Source of the DNA: a virus
Reading direction: 5' to 3' (one strand)
Virus record (IMG/VR): IMGVR_UViG_3300020183_000075
Coordinates: 1 to 62,906 of that record
Length of the DNA stretch: 62,906 nucleotides
The notes under the pieces are model-generated. The model was not told the origin of the DNA. It was given only the letters and a program-made list of their open reading frames with translations, and searched no databases. Positions within the stretch are counted from its first letter, which is position 1, and each line of letters begins with the position of its first letter. This document shows, in pieces, positions 16,042 to 44,345 of this stretch. The translations under genes were made by a program, and so were the position numbers.

Positions 16042-16043
16042 CT

Positions 16044-17009: not shown

Positions 17010-17037
17010 AGTTTAATTATTTTAAAAGAAATACGAA

Positions 17038-18969: not shown

Positions 18970-18972
18970 TGA

Positions 18973-19617: not shown

Positions 19618-20012
19618 CAGTCTTCCTCTTCTTCATCAGCTTCTTCATCTTTTTCTGATTCTTCATCAGCTTCTTCATCTTCTTGGTCTTCGGACCCACC
19701 TTCTTCTTCTTCCTCAGATTGCTCCTCGTCCTCGGCTTCATCCTCTTCTCCTGAAATAGCTTTACCGATTGCTTCTCTACGGTTCTTGAGGTAACTATCG
19801 GTTTCATCAGAATCGCCATCATTATCGATGTCTTCATCTTCTTGACCAACAGCATCTAATTTTTCAAATAAAGTTGGAGCGTAAGCTTCAAACTTCTCGC
19901 TTAAAATTTTTGTAAGTTTTTCATTTAATTGTTCTTTTAGGACGGTTTGTGCTTGTACAAGATTTTCTTCAGCTACCATCTTGATAAAAGAATTTATTGA
20001 TTTGTTACTCAT
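19617..20012 (-). CDS. Acidic prohead core protein (gp67-like) with EF-hand-type loop
   Basis: 131 residues. The N-terminal 50 form helices (ENLVQAQTVLKEQLNEKL) like those of T4 gp67. The last 45 residues are almost all Glu and Asp, also a gp67 trait. Between them is DIDNDGDSDETD at residues 61-72, a complete calcium-binding EF-hand or dockerin-style loop (acidic at 1, 3, 5, 9 and 12, Gly at 6), followed by the helix YLKNRREAIGKAI. The gp20-to-gp21 position is that of T4 genes 67/68. The core role is inferred from position and composition. Calcium binding is predicted only from the loop. Confidence 0.8.
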   Translation of the reverse strand: MSNKSINSFIKMVAEENLVQAQTVLKEQLNEKLTKILSEKFEAYAPTLFEKLDAVGQEDEDIDNDGDSDETDSYLKNRREAIGKAISGEEDEAEDEEQSEEEEEGGSEDQEDEEADEESEKDEEADEEEED

Positions 20013-25895: not shown

Positions 25896-26567
25896 TTATC
25901 CTGTAATACCAAACGTTATTCCATCTATTAACAATTCTCCAATACCTTCGAAATTTGTTATTTTGTATTCTGTGGCTTCTTTTCCATAAACATATGATTT
26001 AGCATTAAAAATATACGAACTTATTATCGATCTTCTGCTATTAAAATCGCCTTCATATTCTTGTATCAGATTTGTCTGCATAAGAGTAATAGGAATATCT
26101 ACTTTTCTATGCAAATCTGTTAGATTCATTGTTATCACAAATTCTGGACTAAAATAAGGCAATATTTGTTCCATTATTTGTAAATTTTCATCGATATTTC
26201 TAGTATATGCGTATAAACCAAATGTAAAATTATAAGGAACTTCAGAGTATGAAGCAGAACCTGTTAAGCCTGTTGTGTTGTTTATTTTTCGTTTTAATTT
26301 GTTTATGTGTCTAACAGGATCGTATGTGATGTTTGTTATCTCAAATGCAAGTTGAGGAATGCTTAATTCAACTCTAGTAAGATCACTAATAGAGCTTGGG
26401 AGAATTAAACGCTTAACAAATTTTTCTTTAGGAGAATACGTTAAAGGAACTAAAATGTCGTGATTTTCTCCCGTAGAAGTTTTCTGCATTACATGAAAAT
26501 TATTAAATAACGAACCAAAAGCAATAACAAGCTTTCGTATTGATTCGTTTTTATAATACGTAAACAT
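25896..26567 (-). CDS. gp15: Tail sheath stabilizer and terminator gp15
   Basis: 223 residues (T4 272). MFTYYKNESIRKLVIAFGSL, VPLTYSPKEKFVKRL, QIMEQILPYFSPEFVITMN and DFNSRRSIISSYIFNAK match the T4 gp15 pattern. The protein forms the ring that ends the tail and joins it to the neck. It starts one base inside the gp14 stop (TGATG), so expression is coupled. The C-terminal extension of T4 gp15 is absent. Confidence 0.92.
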   Translation of the reverse strand: MFTYYKNESIRKLVIAFGSLFNNFHVMQKTSTGENHDILVPLTYSPKEKFVKRLILPSSISDLTRVELSIPQLAFEITNITYDPVRHINKLKRKINNTTGLTGSASYSEVPYNFTFGLYAYTRNIDENLQIMEQILPYFSPEFVITMNLTDLHRKVDIPITLMQTNLIQEYEGDFNSRRSIISSYIFNAKSYVYGKEATEYKITNFEGIGELLIDGITFGITG

Positions 26568-27196
26568 CAGTAATTTCCTTCAGAAAATGGATCTGTTTCT
26601 GTAAAATCTAATATATTTAGTTCAGTATCCAGATCCTGAATTTCTTGGTTCTCGGCAGTTGTACCACGAAGGTGGTCTTCTGTCTGTGCTGCATCTATAT
26701 CTGTATTGCCTGTTGTGAAGTGCTCTTCGTTGTAGGTGAATAGTTCGCAGGTAAGTCTAAAGCTGTATAATTTTCCTAGTTGATAAAAAGGGTTTTCATG
26801 TTCTACGAAATTTATTTCAAATACAGCCTTTGCCAGCGGAAAGAATATCAAATCACCTTCTCTTGGCCTTGTTATCTCTGGTATTCTGGTTTGAACTTCT
26901 TGAATAAATCTTTTCTTGGATACAGTAAGATTAACATTATCTCTAACTTCGATACCAAATTTACTAGCAATATCTCCTTGGCCTTCAAACCCAGCAACAG
27001 AATCAATATACATCTCTAAAGGTATACCAGTTTTAAAAAACGTACCCCATTGTTCTCCAAAAAGTAAATCTTGTTTAAATTTATCTCTAGGAATATAAAC
27101 CATATCTCTTCCCATTGTTTTTATCATTTCAATGGTGAGATCTTCTACAAGATTTTGTTCTCCAGAATAATCTTTAAAATATGGATTTATTGGCAT
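26567..27196 (-). CDS. gp14: Neck protein gp14
   Basis: 209 residues. MPINPYFKDYSGEQNLVEDL, GRDMVYIPR, GEQWGTFFKTGIPLEMYID and KFGIEVRDNVNLTVSKKRF correspond to T4 gp14. Late parts describe a beta core followed by an acidic tail. With gp13 it forms the neck that closes the filled head and takes up the tail. The order gp13-gp14-gp15 is conserved. Confidence 0.93.
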   Translation of the reverse strand: MPINPYFKDYSGEQNLVEDLTIEMIKTMGRDMVYIPRDKFKQDLLFGEQWGTFFKTGIPLEMYIDSVAGFEGQGDIASKFGIEVRDNVNLTVSKKRFIQEVQTRIPEITRPREGDLIFFPLAKAVFEINFVEHENPFYQLGKLYSFRLTCELFTYNEEHFTTGNTDIDAAQTEDHLRGTTAENQEIQDLDTELNILDFTETDPFSEGNY

Positions 27197-27197
27197 A

Positions 27198-27998
27198 TTA
27201 ACCTGTCATGAAATCTACTGGCAGTTCAGAATTATATAAGAATTCTTGTTCTATTTGAGCAATTTCTTGCATTGCTTCTGCGTAAATCTGTCCTCCACGC
27301 ATAGTTACTCCACCGGGCAAAGCAACACCATCAAATTTAGACATGTTGGTTCCCCATTGTTTCTTTATAAGAGCTGTTGCATATCTCTTTAAATAACGAT
27401 CATCATATATTTCTGTATATTTTTCAGGGTCTAAAATGGCATACGCTTGTATGACAATCCAGTCTCCTTCTTTTACTTCTTCACTCCACTTCATATTTAA
27501 GTTTAAACGATTAGTAACTTTGCTAAATGCTATAGCCTTTTCTGGCTGAAAATAATCTTCAATAAGTTTTATATACCGCATCATAGCATCGTAATTTGCA
27601 AGACCCATAGAATGAGTTCCTTGGAGATTACGATTTACACCAAAATAATCTGTTAATGCCATTTGATATCGAACATCAAACATATTGATGTTGGCAAAAT
27701 TACCAAATTGCATCACTTTAACTATAGAAACTATTTCTTTACCGCTTGGTCCATCAACACCATTAGGAGGAAGAATATCATCCGTATTAATGTATTGATT
27801 GATAATGTCTTGGGCAGTTATTTGGTATTTAAAAAATACTTTTTCAACACCATCAAAATGGCGTTCAACAAAGAAATCCAAAGCATCATCAAGTCGTTCT
27901 TCACACTGCTGCCAGTCAACGTTTATTTCGACTACAGGAGCACCTAAACGGCGTAAACAGTATTGTATCAGGGATTCTCTTGAATTTGGTTTTGCCAT
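27198..27998 (-). CDS. gp13: Neck protein gp13
   Basis: 266 residues (T4 309). SRESLIQYCLRRLGAPVVEI, CEERLDDALDFFVERHFDG, WSEEVKEGDWIVIQAYAIL and a helical KRYATALIKKQWGTNMSKF match neck protein gp13. ATG 27998 follows AAGGTAATTT, and a late promoter CATAAATA lies 15 bases upstream. This is probably the first gene of the gp13-14-15-16-17 late run. Confidence 0.93.
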   Translation of the reverse strand: MAKPNSRESLIQYCLRRLGAPVVEINVDWQQCEERLDDALDFFVERHFDGVEKVFFKYQITAQDIINQYINTDDILPPNGVDGPSGKEIVSIVKVMQFGNFANINMFDVRYQMALTDYFGVNRNLQGTHSMGLANYDAMMRYIKLIEDYFQPEKAIAFSKVTNRLNLNMKWSEEVKEGDWIVIQAYAILDPEKYTEIYDDRYLKRYATALIKKQWGTNMSKFDGVALPGGVTMRGGQIYAEAMQEIAQIEQEFLYNSELPVDFMTG

Positions 27999-28039: not shown

Positions 28040-28645
28040 TTATTGTTGTGCTATAGAATCTGGAGGAAGTTCTGGACCTTGTGGCTTACTTTCTGTAGAT
28101 TGGGGCTTTGGGTCTGGAGTTGTTATTGGTGTTTTTAAAACTTCATTAAAATCCATATTTTCAATATAATAACGTCTTGTTATTGGTTCATTTGCTTCAT
28201 CTGGTTCGCTATGATGATAATTACTAAATCCAGGCATATTTAATGGGCAATTTAGTCTAGGATAATCTAATTTACTATATTCAGCACCAGTAGACATCAG
28301 CCATGTATGAGGTTTATCTCCACAACCACAACCACCACAATAGTGCTTCCCTGCAGTTTTACTTTCTTTTAAATGTTCACATGGTGGAAGGATTCCACCA
28401 TTATTAGTATTACCAAAACAACTCAGAACTCGTAGTTGCTTTGATGCAGGACTGGTTTTTTTATCTGTTAATCCTCTAGAGGTTAAAGCGGTAGCAAAGC
28501 TTTTAACCATACTCATTTTATTAATAAATCCATCATTTTGCGGTTGTTGATTAACAACACTTCTAAATGATTGAAATTTTTGTTCGTTATTTACTGGATC
28601 TGGTTGATCCGACGTTTTTTTATTTTTATTGCATCCACATCCCAT
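28040..28645 (-). CDS. Cys-rich hypothetical protein upstream of gp13
   Basis: 201 residues starting MGCGCNKNKK. A second Cys group lies in the middle (VLSCFG, LPPCEHL, HYCGGCGCGDKPHTWL, LNCPLNMPGF), and a Pro-rich tail ends the protein. Paired C-x-C and C-x2-C groups could bind a metal or form disulfides. I see no signal peptide with a hydrophobic core, so a lipoprotein is unlikely despite the early Cys. AGGAG precedes the ATG. The family is not recognised. Neighbours suggest a virion or neck-related protein. Confidence 0.7.
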   Translation of the reverse strand: MGCGCNKNKKTSDQPDPVNNEQKFQSFRSVVNQQPQNDGFINKMSMVKSFATALTSRGLTDKKTSPASKQLRVLSCFGNTNNGGILPPCEHLKESKTAGKHYCGGCGCGDKPHTWLMSTGAEYSKLDYPRLNCPLNMPGFSNYHHSEPDEANEPITRRYYIENMDFNEVLKTPITTPDPKPQSTESKPQGPELPPDSIAQQ

Positions 28646-28706: not shown

Positions 28707-30368
28707 TTAAACAGAATTAGTTTGTCTGTTTGTAAAAGCTCGTTTACAGTTTTCAACATCAACCTGATAATCATCACGAGTTCTAGCCCAATCTTCATTG
28801 AAATTTTGAGTTAAAGTATTTAACTGATTTTGATAAATTTGTTCACAATCATTTTTTGTTGTAACTTTACAAACTTCTTTTTCTTGTGATATTCTTTGTT
28901 TTTCTTGTTCAAAGGCACGTCTTAAAAGTCTTTGTTTATATAACAATTTTTGAAACACAGAATCCAAACAAGTTTTAATATCTTTATATTCTAATGAATA
29001 ATAATTTCCTGGTCCCGGTGGTACTAATACAGGTCTAGGAAATAATACTGGAAGTTTATATGGTCCGGGTATTTTTGGAAAACTATACGCAGATTTTACG
29101 TTTGAAATATTTTCAATATAAATTCTTCTAAATAATCTAATTTTTATTGGAGCATTTCTATCGACTATAGAAACTCTACCATACGATTGTGTTGTTGCAT
29201 CTTGTGCATAATTATAATAATTTTTAGATATTTTTTGAGTTGATCCTAATTTATAACCAGTAGATGTTAAATATAAACCATCTTTTAAATGTGCATTGTT
29301 GTACACATTGCTGGTCGAATTTATGTTTTTAAAATAAAGAGCAAGCTCATCTTGACTTGGTAGATACCAATCTTGAAATCCATTTTTCTTGTATGATTTG
29401 ATATAATTTAAAAGTTTTGTTCCAATATTAGAATCGGTATTATATAAACCATCAGAATTTGATATGTTTATATCATTTGCGGTTTCTGTGGTTGAGTTAT
29501 ATGGTAAATCTATTTCTATATCTTCCGTGTCTGCTATTAATATCCAAGTATTTGTATATCCTGTTTGTGCGCCTTTTCTGGCTTTATAAAGGTTTGGATT
29601 TCCTGTGTTGGTATTACCAAAAACAAATACCTCTTTATTAGTGTCTACATCAAACGTTCCAACATAAAATCCACCCTGATAATAATCACCAATATTTGGA
29701 ATCTTTTTGAGATTGTTTGTGGTTTCGTCTAATTCTTTTTTATACACTATTGGAGAAATTCGTGGCTGTATAGAATACGAATTAATGAGACCATCACAAA
29801 TATTGGTTGCACACGAAAATAGTCCTGTTACGCTGGGCGGAAACCAAGTGCCTGAACATTCTGGTTGTGTTGTCTTTTCACATATAGGAGAACCACCAGT
29901 AAACCCACAACAATGGCCAATAATCATATTAGCTGTTATATCAGAAGTTCTATAGTCTGATGGCTCTTCTGTAATATTACTATTTTTTACACCATTACAC
30001 GCAACATTACCACCATCTGTAACACAAACTCCCCCCAGAGTAAAGCTGGGATACAGACCTTCTGTTCCATCTTGATTTTTTTCGGCACACTCTATCGCAC
30101 TGTTAACAGATTCACAAACTTGAATGTATGTTCCGTTGTCGTCTTTCCAATAACAGCAAACTCCTTCTGGACTAATTAAATTTGAAACACACGTTGCAGT
30201 CTGTGGACAAAATGTGGAATTGGTTCCACCAAGAATAAAAAATCCACCTTGGCAAATACTGCGGTTGGCTACAACCATATTTGCACTACAACACCAACCA
30301 CTACCGCCTTGATCTACGTTAGGCTTAATTTGTTGATTTTGTATTCTGGATCTGAAATGTATACTCAT
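28707..30368 (-). CDS. GxCC-repeat adhesin with Lcl/DUF1566-like domain
   Basis: 553 residues. Residues 24-192 hold Cys-rich units (GWCCSANM, GVCCYWKDDNG, GHCCGFTGGS), each continuing with spaced single Cys residues. Residues 220-410 look like an Lcl/DUF1566 lectin-type domain: GDYYQGGFYVGTF, then GFQDWYLPSQDELALYFK and closing strands with IKIRLFRRI. The C-terminal 100 residues form a charged coiled coil (QRLLRRAFEQEKQRISQEKE). The protein lacks the collagen-like N-terminus of its neighbours. Likely a receptor-binding or decoration protein of the tail; family and receptor are unknown. Confidence 0.7.
   Translation of the reverse strand: MSIHFRSRIQNQQIKPNVDQGGSGWCCSANMVVANRSICQGGFFILGGTNSTFCPQTATCVSNLISPEGVCCYWKDDNGTYIQVCESVNSAIECAEKNQDGTEGLYPSFTLGGVCVTDGGNVACNGVKNSNITEEPSDYRTSDITANMIIGHCCGFTGGSPICEKTTQPECSGTWFPPSVTGLFSCATNICDGLINSYSIQPRISPIVYKKELDETTNNLKKIPNIGDYYQGGFYVGTFDVDTNKEVFVFGNTNTGNPNLYKARKGAQTGYTNTWILIADTEDIEIDLPYNSTTETANDINISNSDGLYNTDSNIGTKLLNYIKSYKKNGFQDWYLPSQDELALYFKNINSTSNVYNNAHLKDGLYLTSTGYKLGSTQKISKNYYNYAQDATTQSYGRVSIVDRNAPIKIRLFRRIYIENISNVKSAYSFPKIPGPYKLPVLFPRPVLVPPGPGNYYSLEYKDIKTCLDSVFQKLLYKQRLLRRAFEQEKQRISQEKEVCKVTTKNDCEQIYQNQLNTLTQNFNEDWARTRDDYQVDVENCKRAFTNRQTNSV
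29795..30302 (-). repeat. GxCC Cys-rich repeats (protein-level), copy set 4
   Basis: This segment encodes irregular units of the G-x-C-C ... C ... C type within the 553-residue adhesin. Three paired-Cys starts are visible. Spacing is looser than in the gene at 35505-38318. Confidence 0.6.
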
Positions 30369-30369
30369 T

Positions 30370-33300
30370 TTAGCAATCTGGTAAAGTGTTGCAATCAGTA
30401 GTGGTAGAGCAATCCATTAACACGCACTGATTGTTTCCATTTTCGTCTGTTATCAATTTATATTTATTAACTCTTGGACTGGGCAAAGTTAAAGATATTG
30501 GAGTTCTAGGAACCGATACTAATTTTGTTTTTTCTACAGTTCTGAAAGAGCCATCGACAGTATCTATCAGAGAAAATATTACAGTTGCGTATATATTTAC
30601 ATTTGTGGTATTACTGTATCCGGTTGTAGGAACTTTATTGAAGAATATAAGAGGATTATCTGTCGATACAATGGTATGTACACCTGCACCATCATTAAAA
30701 GAACTGGTTGGTTCTGTGCTCCAATTTATTATGAACCCGTCGTATTCATACCAGTAATTTACTTGATAAGCGTCTAATTTAAAATTAGTGCCAGCAATAT
30801 AGTATTCAAATCCATTATCTGTCACAGGAACGCATTGTGGATTAGAACCATTACAATCGGTTGTTACGGTTGCAGAAAAATATCCCAGTTGATAATCTGT
30901 AATTATATTTGTAGAAAAATCAATTTCTGGTATTTTTGAATTTGGGTCTTTATATTTTTTAACTATTCTGATGGGAGCATTTCTGACCGTAGAACTACAT
31001 CCATCTGCACTCCAATTATAAAATGGAATATCTTCTCCGTCAGTATAATAGACTACAAATTCGTTGCTCTGTAGTGATGCGGTCGGGAGAATAATTGGAG
31101 TGCCACTTATTGCTTTTTCTATTTTGAAACGAGTTCGATCTTCACCATCACATGCGCGCATAGTCAAAGATGTAGGATCAGAAGGATCGCTCGGTTGGCC
31201 ATTCATGTAATAAAAGTATTCGTTTGTTTTTTCTACAGCAGGGACATCGCCGTATATTCTTGGTGTTAATACAGTATTACCGGATCCATCATCTGCTCTT
31301 TCTATGGTTATAACACGATATTGTGTTGGAGATGGAGATATAGAACAATCAATATTAGCACCTGCTCCTGTGTTTGGTTTAAATGGAGATCCATTTTCTC
31401 CAAAACAAACAGAAGTACATTCTTTATTGGTGCACATCATTACAGAACCATCACAGTCTTGGCAGAACATGGGATACCAGAATATCTGATTTAATTGTGC
31501 TTTAACAGTTAAATATTCTTGCTCGGTAGAATACCAGTTTAAAGTGTCTTTTAGATCCCAGCTGTAAATAGTATTAAGAGAACCGCACTCTAATATTTGT
31601 TCAGTAATTCTATCTAAAATTAATTTTCTATCTGTTGAGCCCGGAATTGGTTCAGTATCAGATAGTTTTATTTCTCTAATACTGTCAATAGAATAACGAG
31701 GATCTCGGTCATACTTACAACCACTAGGTACACATCTTTTATTAGCACTTACCGAGCAACCATACGATACGTTTGTGGTATTGATAATATCAACCAAGCA
31801 GTTTTGTTTTGTTACATCTATTAGACTTGTGCCGGGTATACAGTATGTTTTAAATACTAATGCATACTTTGTTCTTTCAAATGTTCTGACACGACATACT
31901 CCAGCTTGTTTGGGATCTGCAAAACTACCTTCACATATTCCGCTGTTAGAATAACTTGTGTAGATTACAAAATATCTAACATCGGAACCGGGTTCGGAAA
32001 ATTGTAATACAGTATCATTAATTTTATTGTCGTCTTTTGCCGGACAACAAGTAGCCAACTCTGCTGGTGTTATAAATGTAACACCTGCATTTTCATTTTC
32101 AGCTGTAAAAAGTACTGCTTTTTCGTTTGTGATATTATTACTATTTTGTATAAAATTAGTAATATTTGTAATTATATTTCTTTGATCTATTTCTGATGTT
32201 ACACCAGCCGATACTAGATCTCCATATAGCCCAGAAACATTTTCAAAAGATACATTATGCCAATATGGATAATCTTCTTGCCCTGCTAGCGATACTCCTT
32301 TACAACCGATCTGGAAAGAACCGTCATTCATTAGAATATCTAATAAATTATTACAAGATCCTTCACAATTATTCACGCCAGACCCTATATTCCATTCTGA
32401 ATGTTTGCATGTTACAGCAACCGTAGGATCTGCACTGAGATCGTTTTCTTTAGTTATCCTGCAGTCATTATTGTCTTCAACATCTGACGTGGTTATGCAA
32501 ACAGGAGTAACCACATAATCAGAGCCCACCTTCTGCAGATCAACACAGAAATCACAAGACCCGTATTGAGACTGAACCGGATAAAAATAATTAACACCAG
32601 TATTTGTGTCTTGTGTATAACAATCACGACAATATCGTTTAGCTAACCATTCTGATTTTATCAGTTTACTGTTTGGTCTTCCAGCACAAGATGAGATATA
32701 TCTGGGTTTCATCTTATATGTTAAAGAAGTTTTTACCACGCCAGAACTGTCTTTCATCTGTATAACAAAATTGGCTGCTTCATATATTGTGTCTGGTCCA
32801 ATATTATCACTATTATTATCAAATTGTAGTGCAAATGTTAGACCGCTAGTTCCTGTTGGATTTGTTAATGTATATTCTCCTGAAAGATTGTCATAATTTC
32901 CTGATATATCTCTAGTAAAGAAAAAACCAATTTGAAAACCTGTAGCTGAATCCGTATATACTCTTTGTTGTTTAATAACAACATTAGAATCATTAGTTTT
33001 TGCTCTAAATATGGCTACAGTTCCGGGATTTCCTACACTTACACTATTGTCAGGAATTACATTATCAGTAATTACTGAAGGCTGTACAGTCTCTAAAATA
33101 TAGTATAAATTACAAGGTCCACGCAAATCACAAGACTGAGTATTCCACACACCGCCAGCAGCACTGCAAACTGTTTCTGATACAATATTGTGACAAGTTC
33201 CATCAATACAGCAAGAACCAACTCTGCAAGAATTTTCACAACTTATCAGTGCGTTAAATACACCAGCACGAACATCTTCACAAAATTCTCTGGTAACATA

Positions 33301-34398
33301 GTCTTCACAACCACCAGAATAACAGCAAGACCCTATTCCACCATAATCAACAGGTACATCAGAACCAAAAAATCTGTCAACGAAAGATGCATTATAGCTT
33401 GTTAAATCTCCAGATATTGGTGTTTCTATTCTGAGAATATTCATTCCAGAACCAAACGCATAATTTTGTATACCAGTTATTCCACCTTCAAATTTAACAT
33501 TTTGAGGAAAGTTCCAAACATCAGATCCTTCAATAAAAAACAACCAAGATCTCAGCTGATTATCTGCTCTCTTTCTTGAGAATGCTGTTATTCCAATTGG
33601 AGTTGTTAGTTTGAATACAGAAGATTTATCTAAATCTAGAACATATCCACCAGAATCTACCTTTTTGATACCATCGGTTATAGGAACAGAACCTGGTGTA
33701 AAGTTTCTGTTTAATCCATTTATATTTAAAAATGGAGTAGTAAAATCAGTAAATGATTTAATCTCAGATACAGTATTTACATCAGGATTAGCAGTTAATC
33801 CAAATTCTAAAACACCATAATTTAAATTAGACTTAAAACTAGAATTATTGTCTTCAAAAGATTGATTTTGTACTCTAATTCTAGAATTAGTAGCAGTATA
33901 ACTAGTATTCGTAAATGTTATAAATTCGTCTGCAGTAGTTCCAAACAAAACAGAACCGGAAGGAATATCATTTATAGTTAAGAGTATTTCTGTGCCGTCT
34001 GGGCTTAAAGATGTGGTGGTATATTGACCGTCACCACAAATACCACGCAAAACAAATGTCATTCCACCACTAACACCAACAAAAATGCTGTAATAATCAA
34101 AACCAAATGAAGCGCTCACACCTCTAGAATTAAAATAAGTTATACTTGGCCCAGTAAATCCTGTTATAGGACCGACAGTAATACCATTAGACAGATAAAA
34201 ATACACCCCAGCGGAAAGAGGACTGGTATTGGTTGTTACTTGCCTAATATAAACGCCTGTAGCCCCGGTGGGACCGGCAGTTATGCCTAAAAGCCCTATA
34301 CTTCCGATTTCTCCGGCGGGACCAGTGTTACCGGCTGGTCCAGTTAGAGCAAATCCTTCTCCGCCAATTGAACTAGATCCTATTTGTATAGATGGCAT
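30370..34398 (-). CDS. Giant Cys-rich fibre protein with collagen-like start
   Basis: 1342 residues. Residues 18-50 are collagen-like (LTGPAGNTGPAGEIGSIG, AGPTGATG). Beta-rich sequence follows. Two GxCC units lie at about 352-430 (GSCCYSGGC, GSCCIDGTC), and a long second half is rich in scattered Cys pairs (CRDCYTQD, FCQDCDGSVMMC). The C-terminal 250 residues look like repeated Ig-like or beta-sandwich modules with D-x-N strands. The ATG has no ribosome binding site but lies nine bases past a late promoter. Probably a long trimeric tail or head fibre. No homologue can be named. Confidence 0.7.
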   Translation of the reverse strand: MPSIQIGSSSIGGEGFALTGPAGNTGPAGEIGSIGLLGITAGPTGATGVYIRQVTTNTSPLSAGVYFYLSNGITVGPITGFTGPSITYFNSRGVSASFGFDYYSIFVGVSGGMTFVLRGICGDGQYTTTSLSPDGTEILLTINDIPSGSVLFGTTADEFITFTNTSYTATNSRIRVQNQSFEDNNSSFKSNLNYGVLEFGLTANPDVNTVSEIKSFTDFTTPFLNINGLNRNFTPGSVPITDGIKKVDSGGYVLDLDKSSVFKLTTPIGITAFSRKRADNQLRSWLFFIEGSDVWNFPQNVKFEGGITGIQNYAFGSGMNILRIETPISGDLTSYNASFVDRFFGSDVPVDYGGIGSCCYSGGCEDYVTREFCEDVRAGVFNALISCENSCRVGSCCIDGTCHNIVSETVCSAAGGVWNTQSCDLRGPCNLYYILETVQPSVITDNVIPDNSVSVGNPGTVAIFRAKTNDSNVVIKQQRVYTDSATGFQIGFFFTRDISGNYDNLSGEYTLTNPTGTSGLTFALQFDNNSDNIGPDTIYEAANFVIQMKDSSGVVKTSLTYKMKPRYISSCAGRPNSKLIKSEWLAKRYCRDCYTQDTNTGVNYFYPVQSQYGSCDFCVDLQKVGSDYVVTPVCITTSDVEDNNDCRITKENDLSADPTVAVTCKHSEWNIGSGVNNCEGSCNNLLDILMNDGSFQIGCKGVSLAGQEDYPYWHNVSFENVSGLYGDLVSAGVTSEIDQRNIITNITNFIQNSNNITNEKAVLFTAENENAGVTFITPAELATCCPAKDDNKINDTVLQFSEPGSDVRYFVIYTSYSNSGICEGSFADPKQAGVCRVRTFERTKYALVFKTYCIPGTSLIDVTKQNCLVDIINTTNVSYGCSVSANKRCVPSGCKYDRDPRYSIDSIREIKLSDTEPIPGSTDRKLILDRITEQILECGSLNTIYSWDLKDTLNWYSTEQEYLTVKAQLNQIFWYPMFCQDCDGSVMMCTNKECTSVCFGENGSPFKPNTGAGANIDCSISPSPTQYRVITIERADDGSGNTVLTPRIYGDVPAVEKTNEYFYYMNGQPSDPSDPTSLTMRACDGEDRTRFKIEKAISGTPIILPTASLQSNEFVVYYTDGEDIPFYNWSADGCSSTVRNAPIRIVKKYKDPNSKIPEIDFSTNIITDYQLGYFSATVTTDCNGSNPQCVPVTDNGFEYYIAGTNFKLDAYQVNYWYEYDGFIINWSTEPTSSFNDGAGVHTIVSTDNPLIFFNKVPTTGYSNTTNVNIYATVIFSLIDTVDGSFRTVEKTKLVSVPRTPISLTLPSPRVNKYKLITDENGNNQCVLMDCSTTTDCNTLPDC
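33108..33345 (-). repeat. GxCC Cys-rich repeats, copy set 3
   Basis: Two tandem units starting GSCCYSGGC and GSCCIDGTC, each followed by a Cys about nine residues later, an aromatic [FW] and closing Cys residues. They have the same spacing as units in the two upstream genes. Confidence 0.75.
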
Positions 34399-34407
34399 GG
34401 TTATTGA

Positions 34408-34415
34408 TATTTATG
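34408..34415 (-). promoter_or_regulatory. Late promoter CATAAATA overlapping a stop codon
   Basis: The minus-strand octamer contains the TAA stop (34411-34413) of the gene at 34411-35508 and ends nine bases before the ATG of the 1342-residue fibre gene. No Shine-Dalgarno lies in the nine-base spacer. The overlap fits a dense genome but could also constrain both signals. Confidence 0.68.
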
Positions 34416-34670
34416 GTGTACAAGTGCTACCAGTACAAATAGCATTTCTAGTAAAAGTTCCACCTAAACGTTTACAATCAAAATTACTCAAATTAGCACA
34501 ATTTCCATTTGGAAAACAACATTTTCCTATATCTCTACAATTTCCAGTTCTTCGTTCTGCACAAGAAATAGGAGAGAATGTCCCATTAAGACTATTTTTA
34601 CACAATGTAGAATTAATATAATCTATACAACGAGGTCTACCATCACCATCACAATAACAACAAGAACCAT
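34411..34670 (-). repeat. GxCC Cys-rich repeats, copy set 2
   Basis: Two units at the extreme C-terminus of the 365-residue protein (GSCCYCDGDG and GKCCFPNGNC). Each has further Cys residues before an [FL]-x-G-x-F step, ending in C-x4-C. Confidence 0.75.
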
Positions 34671-35508
34671 ATTGTTGTGCACTGAATGGTGTATTCTGAT
34701 CCCATGTATAAGTATTTTCTGTTCTAAAAATTTTTCTAGGACCTGTTGTTCCGCCTATGGTCGTATTCTGTGAAAATATTGTTACTTGATTTGTTCTATC
34801 TAAAAATACAGAATCTTCATCGTATTGAGAATAAGCAATATCTGCGGTTGTGCCAGTAACAAAAGTGTTTATGGTATCTGTTGAACTATTGATATTTTTA
34901 TTTGTTGTTAGACTACTTTGGGCAAACTGAGATATTACTGCTTTTGTTATGTGTATTGTTGTTAGACCTACAGTGTTTTCTTCGTATTTAAATAATGATG
35001 CGGCAAAAGTTTCAGCAGTATTACCGGCACTTCTTAATGCTGCACCATAATCACCTAAAGCGTATCCGCCAGCTAAAGTTACACCAGATACGATAATATC
35101 ATTTCCAGAATACGATGCAGTTAAACCACCTAAGAATTTTACAGGTTTAAACGATGCAGTTAAACCAAATACTGGACCTTTAATTTCAAAACTGGTATTT
35201 AAAACTGTTCCTGTAGAACCAGAAACAGTATAATACTCGTCTTGATTAGTAGAAGTAAATTCACTAAAAGTATTTCCAGACAAACCATTTAAAAATATTT
35301 CTGAAGAATCTGTTAGGTATACAGTGACACCATCAGTATTGGTGTATAAAATAAATGATATACCTAAACCAGTTGCACCTGTTGCCCCCGTTAAACCATC
35401 CGGACCAGTACTACCTCTAGGGCCGGTACTTCCTGTAGGACCACGATATGCCGAAGTATCGACAAATAAATTATTTACTACAAATATACTAGTTCCTACT
35501 TGGGTCAT
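34411..35508 (-). CDS. Collagen-like fibre protein with C-terminal GxCC repeats
   Basis: 365 residues. An N-terminal hydrophobic, beta-type segment is followed by a collagen-like run at about 20-48 (GPTGSTGPRGSTGPDGLTG). Then comes a beta-rich shaft with GLTASFKPVKFLGGLTASYS, and at 280-365 two GxCC units (GSCCYCDGDG, GKCCFPNGNC). The gene begins as ATGA inside the end of the 937-residue adhesin. The arrangement suggests a trimeric fibre with a disulfide-stabilised tip. Function is inferred from composition and neighbours. Confidence 0.72.
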   Translation of the reverse strand: MTQVGTSIFVVNNLFVDTSAYRGPTGSTGPRGSTGPDGLTGATGATGLGISFILYTNTDGVTVYLTDSSEIFLNGLSGNTFSEFTSTNQDEYYTVSGSTGTVLNTSFEIKGPVFGLTASFKPVKFLGGLTASYSGNDIIVSGVTLAGGYALGDYGAALRSAGNTAETFAASLFKYEENTVGLTTIHITKAVISQFAQSSLTTNKNINSSTDTINTFVTGTTADIAYSQYDEDSVFLDRTNQVTIFSQNTTIGGTTGPRKIFRTENTYTWDQNTPFSAQQYGSCCYCDGDGRPRCIDYINSTLCKNSLNGTFSPISCAERRTGNCRDIGKCCFPNGNCANLSNFDCKRLGGTFTRNAICTGSTCTP

Positions 35509-38318
35509 ATTAGTTCTATATTAACTGTGTTTATATTTCTTTGATTAGTTTTAGTTTGTGGTATTGACGGTATTAACCATAAGTATCTATTTTCTGGTAT
35601 CTTGCCATCGCACCGTATCATGCGTATAGGTCTAACTTTGTATGTGTTTGTTCGTTTTGCTTTCAGTACTTGATAATTATTTCCGTTAATATCCATACTG
35701 AAAGCTATTGCACGAGAACCGGGTCTTGGTTTAATTCCTTCATAGTATACTCCTTCTCCGTTTTCATAATCAAAAGTTCCAGTCGAAGACCAATAAGTTC
35801 CGTTTAGTCCTTCACCACCGGCAACAAGCATCAAGTGAGTATTGATATTAAATCCTTGAAGATTGGATGTACTTGCAGCTATGAATCCTAATTCATCATG
35901 GCTTGGTAAATACCATCCAGAAATATTTCCAACATTTCCTGTTATGCCTTGTGTGCTTGATGTTATTCCATCTGATATTGATCTGGTAATTTTAAATGCA
36001 TTGATTGCAGAAAAATCAAAATCCGACCATTTAAAAATATTATCTAAACTTGTTCGTTTTGTATACGCATTGTTTGCATACAATGAACGCATTGTGTTGT
36101 ACAATCCCCAAGACTGATGCCAAACACCATGCATACCGTAAACAGATTTAGCAAAAACTCTGTTTACTCCTTGAATACCGTATTGGGTGCTGGCAGAACA
36201 TGTTGGAAATGTTTTTAACAAAAGATTGTTATCTAGACCTGTAAATCCACTAGTAAGTCCTCCAGTAACTCCAATCGACCAATATCCTTCACTGTGTTTT
36301 AGATGCGTATTGGCATAATATGTTGGTATAGAACTAGTATTTGATGTGTCTAGATCTAAAACAAAATCCGAGTAGTTTCCACCAGCATCTGTAATTGGTC
36401 CCCAAGAAGAACCGGTGATGCCCCAAGAAAATGAATTAATTTCATCCAGTTTTATGTCTCTGGGATATATTATTATGATGTATGCTTCATTATCAAATCC
36501 ACAATCTTTTGTTATACCATATGCTGTATGATCTAAGAATGAAGTGTACAGCTTACAATCATAAATCGTTGTTCCATCTATTTTTGATATATCTGATGGA
36601 TTAAATAGTTCACTAGCTCCTAATATTTTAGTTTTTCCTGGCTCGTATTTACCAACAATAATACCACCTGCATATTCTTGGCCACTTCTTAACGGAACAC
36701 CATTAATATAACCAATACAAGAAATTTTTTCTGGACATTCAAATTCATTACAACTTCTACCCATTCCTAGATAATAACCGTTTCTGGCTAAACATTCTAC
36801 TCCAGACAAAGTAGAACACTCGGTATCAATACAGCACGGACCGGTTCCGGTAGAACACACAGAAGTTCCTGTTGTAGAATCAATACAAACAGAACCACGG
36901 CCCTGATAAAATCCAGATATAGAAAAACATTCTTGTTCAGAAAGTTCAGAACATCCGCCTATACCATCACAACATGCACCCAGATTATTAGATACTGTTG
37001 TGCAGTTTGTAGTTTCGCATTTTGTTCCATTTCCAGCAAAAGAGCTGAAAGAAATTCCTATACATTGAGATGATGTTAAACTAAAACAATTAATTCCTAG
37101 TTCACCGGGAAAGTTTACACAACAAGCACCGGGTTTATTACAAATAGAATCGTAAGTGTTTCCACATGTCGTGCCTACTCCATGGAAATATCCCCTACAG
37201 TTTACTGCGGTTGTTTCTGAACAACTTCCATCTGCTTTACAACAAGCACCAGATATAGAAAATGAATTTAATCCTAACATTTCTGGTAGTCCTGCCATTT
37301 CAGTGAATGTGCACAGCGGTTTAAACATTCCATCACCTTCGCACAAACCATCACTTAAATGTTTGGCTGTAGCATACCAAACTCCTTGCAGTCCAAAGAA
37401 AGATACTCGCAAATCACAAGTAGCACCATTCACAGAAAAACATGGTGGTGAATTTAAAGGCCATTTAATCTGACTTGCCGATGTAAATCTGTTGGCCAGT
37501 ATTGATGGATTTTTTGCATTTCTTAGATACATTTCAAATCCATAAGCTTTGCCATCACTAGGACATGCAGCTATGTTGATACTTGCAGTATTTCCTGTAA
37601 AATCACCAACAAATATTTTAGAAGTAGAACCATACATTAATTCATCATATTCGCTGATAAAAGGACTAACATTACATGTTATACCAGTACCAGATATAAT
37701 ACAATCGACAGCTCCAGTAGAGCCAGTCCAACCCATTCCTCTAACTCGCTCAAATATATTAGCATTAACAAAATCTACACCATAAAAAGACCCACCACTA
37801 GAAGTTATGCCCACAGCACCTGCTACTCTTCTTAGTTTACCGTCTTTAAATTTTAAAAGATACGATTCTGTGAATGATGTGTTAGGAACAAGAGTGACTC
37901 CAGCTCCTGCTATAGAAGATAAATTAACAGTTATCAGATCTGAACCAGAAGATACAATTAAATTGTTTCCTGTGTTATTTTGTATTTTTATAGGTCGTAA
38001 TATTAATTCATCGGTTCCAGTAACAGCATAACCCATAGAGATGCCGGATCCCATATTTAAAAAATCAACAACATAAGTAAAACCACCGGTTTGTCCTACA
38101 ACCACATTTGAGGTGGAATAAGTTGTACCATCAGAAAAAGCAGTAACAATATAACGATCAATTAGAGTTATACCGATAACGTTAGGACCAGTATTTCCTG
38201 TGAGCCCTAAACCATCGGGTCCAGTATTTCCAGCAGGTCCAGTATTTCCTGTAACGCCAATAGTGATGCTGGCGTTTCCTAATTGCTTTATAGAACTGTA
38301 ACCTACAATGTTTCTCAT
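35505..38318 (-). CDS. Multidomain adhesin: collagen-like, four GxCC repeats, Lcl/DUF1566 end
   Basis: 937 residues. Residues 21-45 are collagen-like (GVTGNTGPAGNTGPDG). A beta-rich region follows to about 350. Four GxCC units lie at about 357-393, 397-439, 447-488 and 493-528. The last 400 residues form one or two Lcl/DUF1566-like domains: SGQEYAGGIIVGKY, GWYLPSHDELGFIA, TYWSSTGTF and a closing YKVRPIRMIRC. Lcl domains occur in bacterial collagen-like adhesins and bind sugars, so I predict host-receptor binding. The start overlaps the previous stop as TAATG. Which virion part carries it is unknown. Confidence 0.78.
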   Translation of the reverse strand: MRNIVGYSSIKQLGNASITIGVTGNTGPAGNTGPDGLGLTGNTGPNVIGITLIDRYIVTAFSDGTTYSTSNVVVGQTGGFTYVVDFLNMGSGISMGYAVTGTDELILRPIKIQNNTGNNLIVSSGSDLITVNLSSIAGAGVTLVPNTSFTESYLLKFKDGKLRRVAGAVGITSSGGSFYGVDFVNANIFERVRGMGWTGSTGAVDCIISGTGITCNVSPFISEYDELMYGSTSKIFVGDFTGNTASINIAACPSDGKAYGFEMYLRNAKNPSILANRFTSASQIKWPLNSPPCFSVNGATCDLRVSFFGLQGVWYATAKHLSDGLCEGDGMFKPLCTFTEMAGLPEMLGLNSFSISGACCKADGSCSETTAVNCRGYFHGVGTTCGNTYDSICNKPGACCVNFPGELGINCFSLTSSQCIGISFSSFAGNGTKCETTNCTTVSNNLGACCDGIGGCSELSEQECFSISGFYQGRGSVCIDSTTGTSVCSTGTGPCCIDTECSTLSGVECLARNGYYLGMGRSCNEFECPEKISCIGYINGVPLRSGQEYAGGIIVGKYEPGKTKILGASELFNPSDISKIDGTTIYDCKLYTSFLDHTAYGITKDCGFDNEAYIIIIYPRDIKLDEINSFSWGITGSSWGPITDAGGNYSDFVLDLDTSNTSSIPTYYANTHLKHSEGYWSIGVTGGLTSGFTGLDNNLLLKTFPTCSASTQYGIQGVNRVFAKSVYGMHGVWHQSWGLYNTMRSLYANNAYTKRTSLDNIFKWSDFDFSAINAFKITRSISDGITSSTQGITGNVGNISGWYLPSHDELGFIAASTSNLQGFNINTHLMLVAGGEGLNGTYWSSTGTFDYENGEGVYYEGIKPRPGSRAIAFSMDINGNNYQVLKAKRTNTYKVRPIRMIRCDGKIPENRYLWLIPSIPQTKTNQRNINTVNIELI
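36732..37250 (-). repeat. GxCC Cys-rich repeats, copy set 1 (four tandem units)
   Basis: Four protein-level repeats. The consensus is roughly G-x-C-C, 2-8 residues, G-x-C-x(5-8)-C, an aromatic and G near the middle, then two closing Cys residues (GACCKADGSC, GACCVNFPGE, GACCDGIGGC, GPCCIDTEC starts). Copies differ at the DNA level, so they are old or under selection rather than a recent duplication. Confidence 0.85.
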
Positions 38319-39427
38319 TAGAATGCACTAACTCTGGCATTTAGTTGATTTATTTTTGTTTCTAGTTCTGCTAGCTTTGCACCAACATCAACAGAATTAA
38401 CTGTTAGACTGGTTTCCGCTGTTAACTGATTTATTGTTAACTCGCTTGGAATAGAAATTGAGTTGGCATCTTGGCGTAATTTTAGATACGGTACTAATGT
38501 TTCTCCGTCTTGTGTTGCGTTTGTTATAACTTTAGGAACAAAGAAAGAGCTCACCACAGAACCAGATATACCAAATCCGGTTCTACCAATGTACAAAGTT
38601 TTTGTTACATCGTATAAAGCAGAACTTGCTGCTTTTTCTACTGTAACAGTTCCTGCTATATTTACTGCCGTAACGGTTCCTACTAAAGTTTTAACATTAT
38701 TTATTAGTTGATACGCTTGTTGCCCAATCAAACCAGTGGTTATAGTGCCAGTAGTTACCGTTACTAGTTCTTCATACGGTCCGTATTCTGTGGTGTATAT
38801 AGAATATATGTTGGGATATTGACTGGCAGAAAGTGTTTGATCTTCTGAAAGATCTAACCAGTATCTGTTATCCAACCCTGGTTGTCCTATAATGAATCCA
38901 CCGTCTGGAGGAGCAGGAAATCCTCCTTCAGGAACGGGAGCACTACCAGTTTTATAACCAATATAATTAGTGACAACACCGTTAAATAGTCCGTGCGGTG
39001 CTATTTGAACAACAGGTTTTACAATTTTAACTCCATCGGTTAAATCTATACTTCCGGTTAAACCACCAGCAACCTGATCGTCTAGAAAGAGCACATCGAT
39101 TCCACCATCAGAGCCATCTACTATTGTATTTAAACGTTCAGCCGGATATTTAATAGAACCGTAAACAACAACATCATACGGAGGAACTTTTCCTGCTTCT
39201 ATAACTCCTAAAACTTCGGCGTTTACTTCTGTGTCTGCCTGAGATTTTTTATATGAAAGATCCAACGGATCGTAACGAATAACATCTCCTGCAGTAAGAC
39301 CAGCTGCTAGTGTGTATCCTTCTCCAGACTTTAATGTGATAACAAGACGAGTCGTATCTTGTTGTAAAATTACGTGAGGTGCAAATACTCGTGTGTTTTG
39401 ATTGCTGGTAGATCTACAAGATGGCAT
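38318..39427 (-). CDS. Fibre protein with tail-collar-like segment and coiled-coil end
   Basis: 369 residues. The N-terminal 100 include AGDVIRYDPLDLSYKKS and VNAEVLGVIEAG, a module also present in the next upstream gene. Around 185-215, DNRYWLDLSEDQTLSASQYP then IYTTEYGPYEE resembles the phage tail-collar motif (W-x-x-x-x-G-x-x-L-x-x-x-x-Y-P with a later YG). The C-terminus SVDVGAKLAELETKINQLNA is a trimeric-type coiled coil. AAGGAT precedes the ATG. A short tail fibre or collar component is likely. Confidence 0.7.
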   Translation of the reverse strand: MPSCRSTSNQNTRVFAPHVILQQDTTRLVITLKSGEGYTLAAGLTAGDVIRYDPLDLSYKKSQADTEVNAEVLGVIEAGKVPPYDVVVYGSIKYPAERLNTIVDGSDGGIDVLFLDDQVAGGLTGSIDLTDGVKIVKPVVQIAPHGLFNGVVTNYIGYKTGSAPVPEGGFPAPPDGGFIIGQPGLDNRYWLDLSEDQTLSASQYPNIYSIYTTEYGPYEELVTVTTGTITTGLIGQQAYQLINNVKTLVGTVTAVNIAGTVTVEKAASSALYDVTKTLYIGRTGFGISGSVVSSFFVPKVITNATQDGETLVPYLKLRQDANSISIPSELTINQLTAETSLTVNSVDVGAKLAELETKINQLNARVSAF

Positions 39428-39441
39428 CTATGATATCCTTT

Positions 39442-41865
39442 TTATACTGTCTTAATCTTTATATCTGCATCTGCAACATAATGGAATTTAAGTGTATCTA
39501 AATGGGTTGCTCCATTATTAATTTTAATTTGCATGCCGTTTCGTGTTGTGTTTGGAACTGTGATATTTCCTGATGGTAACGATGTTCTTACCGTGCTGGT
39601 GTCCCATGGTAGATTTACGTGTATAGGACATCCTTCACATCTGGGGAAACGCATATCTGCTTTTTTGGTCGCGTTATATGCTTCATTAGGCTCGCCTGTT
39701 GGCGAATACAGCACCACAGATGGTGTATCCACCATTTCCACGGGGAATTTAACATCATACACGTCTTGAGATAGCAAATTACCCAGCGTTACGTATTCTT
39801 CGTTTAATCTGCTAGTTCCTGTAAATCCGGTAGATTGATCCCAATCGTATGTTCGTAAATAATACGGACTGCATCTTTCTAACTCTTTTTCTGGCAGTTC
39901 GTAAACATAATCTGCAATATCCGAACCCAGTTCAACCTTTACTTGAGCTATGGATAAAGTCACACCACCAGAAGGGAATTCAAATCCTAGACCATACCAG
40001 CCTTCTTCACCATTTCCTACAACACCCTGAGCAGCAGTTGTAAATGTATACGAATACCTATTCCAAGCTGTTCCTAATTCAATTCCTGATGTGATTGTAG
40101 TTCTACCTGCAACTGCGTCAGACGCTTCATTTGATGTTAGATATTCGTCTACTATTTCTGGATATTGATTGTATATCAGATCCATCGTGGCACCACAAAT
40201 GCCTGCATATGCCCAGAATGTTACTGTAGCTTGTTGTCCTTGCAATAGACGAGCACCGCGTTGAATATTTTCTAAACGGGGTCTGTAATTTAGACCGGTG
40301 GTACTAGTATACGATTGTTTGGTTTCAATCCAATATCTGGGAGACCCTGGAACAGAGATTTGTGATGCATCAAACGAGTGTCTTTCTATGGTTGCAGTCA
40401 GTCCTGTTATATTTCCAATACTATCGGTAATGTAAAACCAACGATCCGCAATAGGCGTATTAAACGCAGATAGTCCTGCCAGGGTTACACCGTTCAGACC
40501 ATTAAAACCACGTTGCCAGATTGTGAACGATCCGTTTGGCAGGAGATTATCGTATTCCAAACTTCCAGTAATTCCATTACTATTAGTTGAAACAAGAAAA
40601 CTGGAATTTCCACTAGTTAGCTTTACGCCTAAACTTCTTGCTTGTGATAATAGAGTATATTTTAATGTTTGATCGACATCACTAAAGGGAATAAGTTTTA
40701 CAATTCCGTTATTAAAATTGCCATATTTTAATGGCCTAAGAGCAAAATATCCATCAACATCAGAAGCCCAACCAAAAACACCCCCATCATATGTTACACT
40801 GCCATTTTCACCTATAAATGAATATGCTATTGTATCTAATTCTGATTTTTTAACATTAAAACTTCCACCAGGTAAAGTAATTTCTAGAGTAAGAATACTA
40901 CCATCATCTATTAAAATTTGAGAAATTACTCCTAACAATGATAATTCACTGTTCAAATTTGATACTCCATCACCAGAAGAAAAAACTGCAACGGTAGGTA
41001 TATTGTTTTCTATAGTTTCACCATAAAGTTTACCAACTAATTTAGATACAGTATTTAGTAAGTTAGCTGTCCAACCAAAGTCATCTAGAGGACCTTTATA
41101 GTATACAGGATCTCCTTTTTTAACTGGATAAAAATATCCAGCAGGTGTTGTGGGATCCGCCGACATGGAATAATCTACTCTAATAATAATTTTATTGTCT
41201 AACTCTGCAGTTATACCGGCACTGATACCTTCTATCTGAATACCACGATACGGCAGAATAGCACCAGCAGAACCGGTAATACCTAAAAGTACAGGCTTTG
41301 ATACTGTTCCGTAGACTTGAGGTTCAAATGTGGTAATACCACCGGCAACGTCAGGATTCAAAAAGTACGCACAACCAACCGAAAGAGTGCCACCGGCAAC
41401 TCCTAGAAGATTGCTAATAGTACCAGCAAATGCGGTGTTATTGATCACACCAGAAGTTGCAACAGTGTCTGAGCTGGCATCAGAGCCTACAACTATACCT
41501 AAAACTTCTGCATTCTCTGGTGTGTTTGCACGTGAAAGAGTTAATCCGCTGTCTATAATACGCACCACGTTACCTATAGTAATACCTGCAGATTTAGGTG
41601 ATACCGCAACAGTAACTGTGTTTATAGACGGAACAGAGCTGAAAGACACAGTGTTTGTGAACGACACAGGACCGGTGAATGTTACAGGAGTGCCTACAGA
41701 CGATCCGTGTTTAATTGTAAATATGTTTCCACTGCTAGTCAGGCTTATACCATCACCAGGAAGTATGTTGTGAACGGTTATACCGTTTACTTCAGAAATA
41801 ATACTGTTTGTGGTGTTGAACCATGTTTGAAACGTATCACTGGAAGATAGTGGAGTAATTGCCAT
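39442..41865 (-). CDS. Tail fibre-like structural protein
   Basis: 807 residues. The N-terminus TPLSSSDTFQTWFNTTNSII is of a kind found at the baseplate-attachment end of marine T4-like fibre proteins. Residues 85-140 repeat the ITIGNVVRI ... AEVLGIVVGSD module shared with the next gene. From about 440 the protein has NLLPNGSFTIWQRG, a WFYITD step and ERHSFDASQI. This fits a C-terminal jelly-roll sugar-binding domain as in many phage fibres. No strong ribosome binding site is seen. Probably part of the long or short tail fibre; gp10 or gp12 equivalence is not shown. Confidence 0.7.
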   Translation of the reverse strand: MAITPLSSSDTFQTWFNTTNSIISEVNGITVHNILPGDGISLTSSGNIFTIKHGSSVGTPVTFTGPVSFTNTVSFSSVPSINTVTVAVSPKSAGITIGNVVRIIDSGLTLSRANTPENAEVLGIVVGSDASSDTVATSGVINNTAFAGTISNLLGVAGGTLSVGCAYFLNPDVAGGITTFEPQVYGTVSKPVLLGITGSAGAILPYRGIQIEGISAGITAELDNKIIIRVDYSMSADPTTPAGYFYPVKKGDPVYYKGPLDDFGWTANLLNTVSKLVGKLYGETIENNIPTVAVFSSGDGVSNLNSELSLLGVISQILIDDGSILTLEITLPGGSFNVKKSELDTIAYSFIGENGSVTYDGGVFGWASDVDGYFALRPLKYGNFNNGIVKLIPFSDVDQTLKYTLLSQARSLGVKLTSGNSSFLVSTNSNGITGSLEYDNLLPNGSFTIWQRGFNGLNGVTLAGLSAFNTPIADRWFYITDSIGNITGLTATIERHSFDASQISVPGSPRYWIETKQSYTSTTGLNYRPRLENIQRGARLLQGQQATVTFWAYAGICGATMDLIYNQYPEIVDEYLTSNEASDAVAGRTTITSGIELGTAWNRYSYTFTTAAQGVVGNGEEGWYGLGFEFPSGGVTLSIAQVKVELGSDIADYVYELPEKELERCSPYYLRTYDWDQSTGFTGTSRLNEEYVTLGNLLSQDVYDVKFPVEMVDTPSVVLYSPTGEPNEAYNATKKADMRFPRCEGCPIHVNLPWDTSTVRTSLPSGNITVPNTTRNGMQIKINNGATHLDTLKFHYVADADIKIKTV

Positions 41866-42982: not shown

Positions 42983-44344
42983 TTATAGTGCTCCTTCTAC
43001 GGTCGATGGCTGATAAATAGTAACTTTTGTGGTCATGCGTTGAACATTTGTATCATTTTTTGTGTAAGCAGCAGGTGCGTTACTGTCTAAAAGATATGGA
43101 TCTGCCATGACAGCAAATTTAGTGTGTTGCACTAAACCTGGCATCACAGAACGAATCTCATCGTCAGTAACAGTTACAGACACTTTCAGTTTTTGTGGTT
43201 TTACATATAATTGCGGATTGGTGTATATATCCGGATGATAATTGTATACAGTTATTTTATTAAATAGAGCAGAACCTATAACAGAACCAGTATTGTCTGG
43301 AACTGCCAGATCGCCGTATCCACTACCTTCTGTTAATAGTTCTATACCATACACAAAATGGCGGTTTAAACCGATAGGTGTGGTTTTAATTTTTACCGTT
43401 GCTCCTGATCCATTTGGATCAGAAATATTTAAAATGGGATTATCTGAATTTATTGTTTTTTGTGCATCTGTTAAATCAGACAGATCTATATTAACAATCA
43501 TAATACCTAGATCATTATGATTATTTAATAAAAATAATTGGTATTCTTTGCTAGAACCAGGTACTATATTATATTTGTCTGCTTCAAGACTGTCTTTTAG
43601 TGAATTTATAGTTTTAGTTGCTGGGCATAAAGGATTTTCTCCTGTTTGACTACTTGTTATAGATCCAGCAGTATATCCACTTAAGAATGTTACTTCACGA
43701 TCTAGTGCTTCGGCTAATTTTTGGCATTCATAACAATCAGAAAAAATAGTTTCATTTGTTACATCACCTTTAGTGTAAACTTCTCCGGTAATTTCATCTA
43801 CACTATTTTCTTTAAAATATAAACAGCAACAGCCAAAAGTTGTTACTCCTTTTGGCCCACATAAAGTTTCATATTTCTCCGAGAAAGTGTTGTAATCTTT
43901 TTCAAGATCTAATTTAGGAATAGGAATTTCATTTGAAGTTATAAATTCCCATTCAGTGAAATCTACTTTAAATAAAGGAAGCCAAGTATAACCATCAGAG
44001 TATGTTTGTCTTCCACTTGCGTGTGATGGCTGTTCGGTCGATAAACCCGAATCTAAATCATTTCTAAAATCTGAATTATTGTGTAAACACAGATATACTG
44101 TCTGATTATCTTCGTTGTAAACAACTTGATAATCATCATCAGCCACATAATAATTATATTTTACATTTGTTTGCCATGGATTTATAGAACCAATGTAATG
44201 TTTTTGTGATTCTGGTATACGTTTGGTGAAAAAAGAATCACTTAGGGGACTCCACGTATCTGCAGAATCAGTACTGATTCCTCCAGTTACTAAGAATAAT
44301 TCTTTTGGTACATTTAAAGTTTTTGTTGATAATTGATTAAACAT
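42983..44344 (-). CDS. gp8: Baseplate wedge protein gp8 with Cys-rich insertion
   Basis: About 454 residues from ATG 44344; a TTG at 44392 would add 16 but overlap gp7. Conserved parts include KMFNQL-type start, QTVYLCLHNNSDF, YSDGYTWLPLFKV and a C-terminal MADPYLLDSN, matching gp8 homologues. Residues near 175-250 form an insertion with GCCCLYFKEN and CYECQKL not seen in the T4 protein as I know it. gp8 dimerises in the wedge and joins gp7, gp10 and gp6. Gene order gp6-gp7-gp8 supports the call. Confidence 0.82.
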   Translation of the reverse strand: MFNQLSTKTLNVPKELFLVTGGISTDSADTWSPLSDSFFTKRIPESQKHYIGSINPWQTNVKYNYYVADDDYQVVYNEDNQTVYLCLHNNSDFRNDLDSGLSTEQPSHASGRQTYSDGYTWLPLFKVDFTEWEFITSNEIPIPKLDLEKDYNTFSEKYETLCGPKGVTTFGCCCLYFKENSVDEITGEVYTKGDVTNETIFSDCYECQKLAEALDREVTFLSGYTAGSITSSQTGENPLCPATKTINSLKDSLEADKYNIVPGSSKEYQLFLLNNHNDLGIMIVNIDLSDLTDAQKTINSDNPILNISDPNGSGATVKIKTTPIGLNRHFVYGIELLTEGSGYGDLAVPDNTGSVIGSALFNKITVYNYHPDIYTNPQLYVKPQKLKVSVTVTDDEIRSVMPGLVQHTKFAVMADPYLLDSNAPAAYTKNDTNVQRMTTKVTIYQPSTVEGAL

Positions 44345-44345
44345 T

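Follow-up and report, generated by a model that had tools for sequence, protein, structure and literature searches.

Four adjacent minus-strand genes of an uncultivated T4-like phage (28707-38318) encode proteins that carry a cysteine-rich unit, GxCC, for which Pfam, NCBIfam and PHROGs hold no model. It is likely that these are structural proteins of the phage that act in receptor binding or adhesion, with the units serving as disulfide-stapled spacers. The strongest new point is the unit itself, an uncatalogued and apparently disulfide-bonded module common to bacteria and, probably, to iRhoms.

The window, meaning the whole 62,906-nucleotide stretch that was analysed, comprises positions 1 to 62,906 of IMG/VR record IMGVR_UViG_3300020183_000075. 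Its gene content is that of a T4-like myovirus structural module: PHROGs identifies gp6, gp13, gp14, gp15, terminase, sheath, portal and major head protein, and Pfam identifies RegA, the clamp, the clamp loader, UvsY and gp25, among others. The portal is at most ~52% identical to those of annotated phages, the best matches being Prochlorococcus and Synechococcus myoviruses. A search for tRNA genes found none in the window, and promoter-like sites occur at chance frequency. At 458-2672, an FkbM methyltransferase adjoins two glycosyltransferases of families 11 and 10 (fucosyltransferase-like). Two giant baseplate-region proteins of 1391 and 1349 residues (50525-58754) carry RCC1-type beta-propeller repeats; since the 1349-residue protein also starts with a gp53 baseplate wedge domain, the propeller seems to be fused to a baseplate protein. 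On the opposite strand, where the structural module ends, sits a TnsA-like endonuclease domain (59939-60385), homologues of which lie near GxCC proteins in other viral loci.

The block contains 11 GxCC units distributed as in the original prediction, which had four in the 937-residue protein and two or three in each of its neighbours: the 553-residue protein has three, and the 1342- and 365-residue proteins have two each. Ten of the 11 have their six cysteines arranged as G-x-C-C ... C-x(7-8)-C ... C ... C, the gaps differing in length, and the first unit of the 553-residue protein is atypical in lacking the C-x7-C spacing. No other open reading frame in the window has more than one GxCC, a single stray copy occurring within the frame 42983-44392. 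Cysteine content is 3.6-3.8% in the four proteins versus mostly <2% in neighbouring structural proteins. Residue shuffling gives an expected 0.05-0.17 GxCC per protein, and the observed count of full six-cysteine units was reached in none of 5,000-20,000 shuffles. DNA identity among the units has a maximum of 0.58 and a mean of 0.48, so the divergence that had been noted between copies holds.

Table 1. Coordinates of the GxCC block, its parts and its flanking genes in the window (all on the minus strand; aa, amino acids).
Feature	Position	Strand	Basis or remark
Neck genes gp13, gp14, gp15, T4-type	25896..27998	-	PHROGs; fix the syntenic position
Conserved 201-aa protein (p201)	28040..28645	-	Adjoins gp13; opposite flank of the block from p369/p807
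553-aa protein: three GxCC units, Lcl-like domain, C-terminal helical hairpin	28707..30368	-	
Lcl C-terminal-domain-like (C-type-lectin-like) region, 553-aa protein aa 209-416	29121..29744	-	8q4e_A superposition
Three GxCC units, 553-aa protein aa 24-191	29796..30299	-	First unit atypical
1342-aa candidate adhesin: collagen-like start, two GxCC units, long Cys-rich remainder	30370..34398	-	48 Cys overall
Two six-Cys units, 1342-aa protein aa 356-429	33112..33333	-	
Collagen-like stretch, 1342-aa protein aa 20-40	34279..34341	-	G-x-x triplets
365-aa candidate adhesin: collagen-like start, middle region, two GxCC units at C terminus	34411..35508	-	
Two six-Cys units, 365-aa protein aa 281-363	34420..34668	-	
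Collagen-like stretch, 365-aa protein aa 23-49	35362..35442	-	G-x-x triplets
937-aa candidate adhesin: collagen-like start, four GxCC units, Lcl-like C-terminal domain	35505..38318	-	
Lcl C-terminal-domain-like region, 937-aa protein ~aa 529-901	35616..36734	-	8q4e_A superposition
Unit 4 of 937-aa protein, aa 493-528	36735..36842	-	Model superposes on iRhom1 596-637, iRhom2 568-608
Tandem array, four six-Cys units, 937-aa protein aa 357-528	36735..37250	-	
Collagen-like stretch, 937-aa protein aa 21-38	38205..38258	-	Regular expression for G-x-x triplets
Flanking genes p369 and p807	38318..41865	-	p807: PHROGs tail-fibre family phrog_4492, E 8e-26

Three of the four proteins open with 6-9 collagen-like triplets within residues 20-49, followed by related sequence (365- versus 1342-residue protein, E 1e-11; 365- versus 937-residue protein, E 8e-8) and then by the units; the Pfam Collagen model matches the 365-residue protein at E 0.004, below cut-off. 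The units form the end of the chain in the 365-residue protein, and many more cysteines follow them in the 1342-residue protein. Modelling gives the C-terminal regions of the 553- and 937-residue proteins the fold of the C-terminal domain of the Legionella collagen-like adhesin Lcl, which is C-type-lectin-like, trimeric and glycosaminoglycan-binding (PMC11162425). The AlphaFold model of the 553-residue protein superposes on 8q4e_A with Z 10.9 and an rmsd of 2.7 Å over 123 residues, pLDDT being mostly 71-95 across this region, and that of the 937-residue protein, whose region is modelled with middling confidence (pLDDT 65.8), with Z 9.0 and 3.5 Å over 128 residues. Foldseek searches of the PDB gave no significant E-value for either model, the list for the 553-residue protein consisting mostly of helical rows. 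The gathering score of PF07603 is missed (17.4 and 16.9 bits versus 34.9), and Pfam Lcl_C matches the 937-residue protein at E 0.008, below cut-off; a viral DUF1566 protein is matched at E 7e-8 alongside this evidence for the fold. A long helical hairpin is predicted at the end of the 553-residue protein (28707-28994, aa 459-551), and most of its relatives are ~416-450 residues long and lack it.

The block is flanked by the tail-fibre gene p807 with its neighbour p369 and, at the opposite end, by p201 and gp13, which places it in the T4-like tail adhesin slot between fibre/baseplate genes and gp13. The p807 product also matches tail-fibre proteins of annotated phages. The p201 protein starts with MGCGCNKNKK, has 8 cysteines and is found beside gp13 in many relatives; a search for its family gave no clear assignment. 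Relatives were collected through gp14 (80 loci); 26 of them have 5 kb or more of sequence upstream of gp14, and 21 of these 26 carry GxCC proteins in this slot. The gp14 identity of these carriers reaches down to 54-58%, in keeping with the long retention that had been proposed. In many relatives a collagen-like start at about residues 15-50 is likewise present, and the number of GxCC per protein ranges from 2 to 20. A DNA pattern retrieved 66 viral stretches, some on the same contigs, after a related-locus search with the 937-residue protein had found nothing. Of 50 GxCC-bearing viral records tested, at least 14 have a T4-type portal; since the records are fragments, this count is a minimum. 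One close relative, L037 (gp14 75% identical), has a p369 homologue followed by a p201 homologue at 7456-9159, with the frames ~30 bases apart; the four genes are therefore absent as a block, and are not needed in every relative. In cyanophage P-HM2, the place before gp13 is taken by a gene of 5.5 kb that has no known function and encodes an Ig-like domain.

Searches by tblastn of 50,697 annotated phage records gave no match to the repeat and none to the 553-residue protein. A local control, set to an equal database size and with low-complexity filtering switched on, recovers 26-27 of the viral loci, so this null is no blind spot for tandem forms. The expectation that such dense cysteine repeats are uncommon in phage fibres is thus supported; the domain libraries gave no sign of an already described common phage domain, and a literature search found no description of the repeat. 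It had also been suggested that repeats of this kind are more familiar from secreted bacterial proteins, and secreted-looking bacterial proteins do contain the unit. Searched with a profile of ten window units, bacterial proteins show as many as 14 units each (best E 8e-71). With a profile made from phage units alone, the counts are 33 units in a Phycisphaerae genome, 43 in an Eisenbacteria genome and 15 in a Bacteroidetes genome. At the repeat, no Pfam or NCBIfam model matches the bacterial carriers. On sequence grounds, the GxCC unit is an uncatalogued domain family that extends to some secreted-looking bacterial proteins. Its spread is patchy, with only 3 of 59 Planctomycetota genomes drawn having the unit at E 1e-5, and it is not typical of that phylum as a whole. 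DNA-pattern hits in Leifsonia and Draconibacterium were dismissed as chance, as neither genome has a profile match.

The cysteines are well conserved. In orthologues 35-85% identical, 10/12 to 13/13 (83-100%) are kept in the 365-residue protein, 14/16 to 21/21 (88-100%) in the 553-residue protein and 80-100% in the 937-residue protein, with looser retention (59-100%) in the 1342-residue protein. Non-cysteine residues in the 365- and 553-residue orthologues are 33-82% identical, the cysteines being kept far better. In the set of 870 distinct phage and bacterial units, C2 and C6 are jointly missing in six (p 1.4e-6) and C3 and C5 in two that are related to each other; p-values for paired loss are optimistic because units were counted and some come from related proteins. 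With C2/C6 and C3/C5 lost as pairs, C1 would by elimination pair with C4. Loss of cysteines in pairs is a prediction of disulfide bonding, so disulfides are favoured over metal. In three bacterial loci (L151, L154 and L184), many units without C6 have an extra cysteine just before C4, as if the disulfide partner had been exchanged.

Unit profiles were searched against 177,635 PDB sequences. The profile from ten window units gave four sequences at E <1, all iRhoms. A phage-only profile (51 units) matches iRhom1 at E 1e-7 and iRhom2 at E 3e-5, with the next match at E 1, and a bacteria-only profile matches the two iRhoms at 2e-4 and 5e-3 and nothing else. A gapless mixed profile also matches iRhoms only (E 0.007-0.0095), and a control version, with non-cysteine columns permuted and cysteine spacing unchanged, has no iRhom match in the PDB. 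The model of unit 4 superposes on iRhom1 596-637 with Z 4.2 and an rmsd of 2.1 Å over 40 residues (28% identity), and on iRhom2 568-608 with Z 4.1 and 1.9 Å over 39 residues (26% identity); the sequence-profile match, iRhom2 570-606, is the stretch that the structural alignment picks. This superposition depends on a model with pLDDT of ~60-75, and Z scores of 4.1-4.2, unsurprising for so small a piece, are low enough for chance and too low to stand alone. The matched stretch belongs to the iRhom homology domain (IRHD), which spans ~230-240 residues with 16 cysteines (PMC6451368, PMC12184519), was described as resembling no known domain (PMC6451368) and is reported to have an unprecedented structure with eight disulfides (PMC11248996).

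The GxCC unit and the iRhom segment probably share common descent. The specificity of the profiles for iRhoms, the permutation control and, more tentatively, the superposition at ~2 Å make this likelier than convergence on a small disulfide knot, which we regard as possible but the weaker account: six-cysteine knots arise repeatedly, the unit has only ~37 residues, the structural Z scores fall within the tool's warning range, and the eukaryotic coverage consists of PDB sequences. Convergence does not readily explain why the phage-only and bacteria-only profiles, built separately, each have significant matches to iRhoms alone in the whole PDB set, why permuting columns at fixed cysteine spacing abolishes the match, or why the structural alignment selects the same segment across the whole unit. 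On balance, we lean towards a new domain family whose members occur in uncultivated T4-like phages, in scattered bacterial phyla and in animals, and in which the IRHD would hold an old extracellular repeat bead common to phage adhesins and bacterial secreted proteins.

By analogy with known collagen-like fibres, the collagen-like N-terminal segment would trimerise three of the four proteins. Each GxCC unit may form a ~36-55-residue domain closed by three disulfides (predicted pairs C1-C4, C2-C6 and C3-C5), which would form after the virion leaves the reducing cytoplasm, and the units could act as rigid, protease-resistant spacers or contact modules that, like beads, are added or removed. In the 937- and 553-residue proteins they would present the C-terminal Lcl-type C-type-lectin-like domain, the likely ligand-binding end. 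The adhesin-like character originally predicted is seen as architecture, in the collagen-like starts, the Lcl-type lectin-like ends and the slot between fibre genes and gp13; an adhesin role is plausible, with more support now than when it was proposed. The proposal that the units stabilise fibre tips is doubtful for the 937- and 553-residue proteins, where they precede the lectin-like domain and appear spacer-like; the 365-residue protein is the only one in which they end the chain.

Other roles and chemistries for the block are less probable. The whisker gene wac lies before gp13 in T4, in this same slot, and the four products could be virion proteins that have no receptor role, such as neck whiskers or baseplate decorations. 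T4-like cyanophages are without recognisable wac, g10-g12 and fibre genes (PMC2984593), which would allow for this, but the lectin-like domain in two of the four proteins, whose relative in Lcl binds glycans (PMC11162425), makes it unlikely. Even less likely is a location off the virion, as products secreted or displayed on the cell surface during infection; the secreted look of the bacterial carriers suggests it, whereas the slot within the structural module beside fibre and neck genes in many relatives, collagen-like starts resembling phage tail-fibre families, and N termini that by eye are unlike signal peptides argue against it. Phage assembly takes place in the cytoplasm, and this together with the dense cysteine pattern is compatible with units that bind a metal such as zinc through their cysteines and form no disulfides. 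Folding in a reducing cytoplasm also counts against a disulfide-bearing adhesin, as does the lack of a recognised thiol oxidase among the window's genes, although the contig is a fragment. However, the cysteines vanish in pairs, the unit has no conserved histidine, the bacterial carriers look secreted, and the sole significant PDB match is the eight-disulfide iRhom domain (PMC11248996, PMC12184519). Of the two options first offered, disulfides or bound metal, the former is favoured and the latter is improbable.

T4-like marine phages have no recognisable versions of many T4 adhesins (PMC2984593). The block provides testable host-binding candidates for a large uncultivated lineage, and its unit is a putative disulfide module absent from the domain libraries in current use. 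Should the iRhom link be true, the units would be the first relatives outside iRhoms for part of the IRHD (PMC6451368, PMC11248996), a domain that controls the sheddase ADAM17, and would serve as small, easily made models of that part.

Four known systems invite comparison. Adhesins of the T4 gp10-gp12/wac region and collagen-like phage fibres share with the block a genomic slot and a collagen-like start; no homology to gp10-gp12 or wac was detectable with PHROGs, and to our knowledge such cysteine units are not known in these proteins. Lcl of Legionella (PDB 8q4e; PF07603 Lcl_C/DUF1566) similarly combines a collagen-like segment with a C-terminal C-type-lectin-like domain, but it is a bacterial surface protein without GxCC units, and its collagen region is long, compared with the 6-9 triplets here. 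The repeat proteins of Phycisphaerae, Eisenbacteria and some Bacteroidetes, which have no family name, contain the same tandem unit (up to 14 per protein) but other domain neighbours, a dockerin in one case, and no collagen-like or Lcl-like part was seen in them. The IRHD of iRhom1 and iRhom2 differs in lying between two membrane helices of a pseudoprotease, and Pfam detects no rhomboid domain in the four phage proteins. Only one unit matches it well, a second matching in its first half only, and what the two have in common is this one small unit: a 37-40-residue stretch with the six-cysteine pattern, similar non-cysteine residues and a predicted fold that may be similar.
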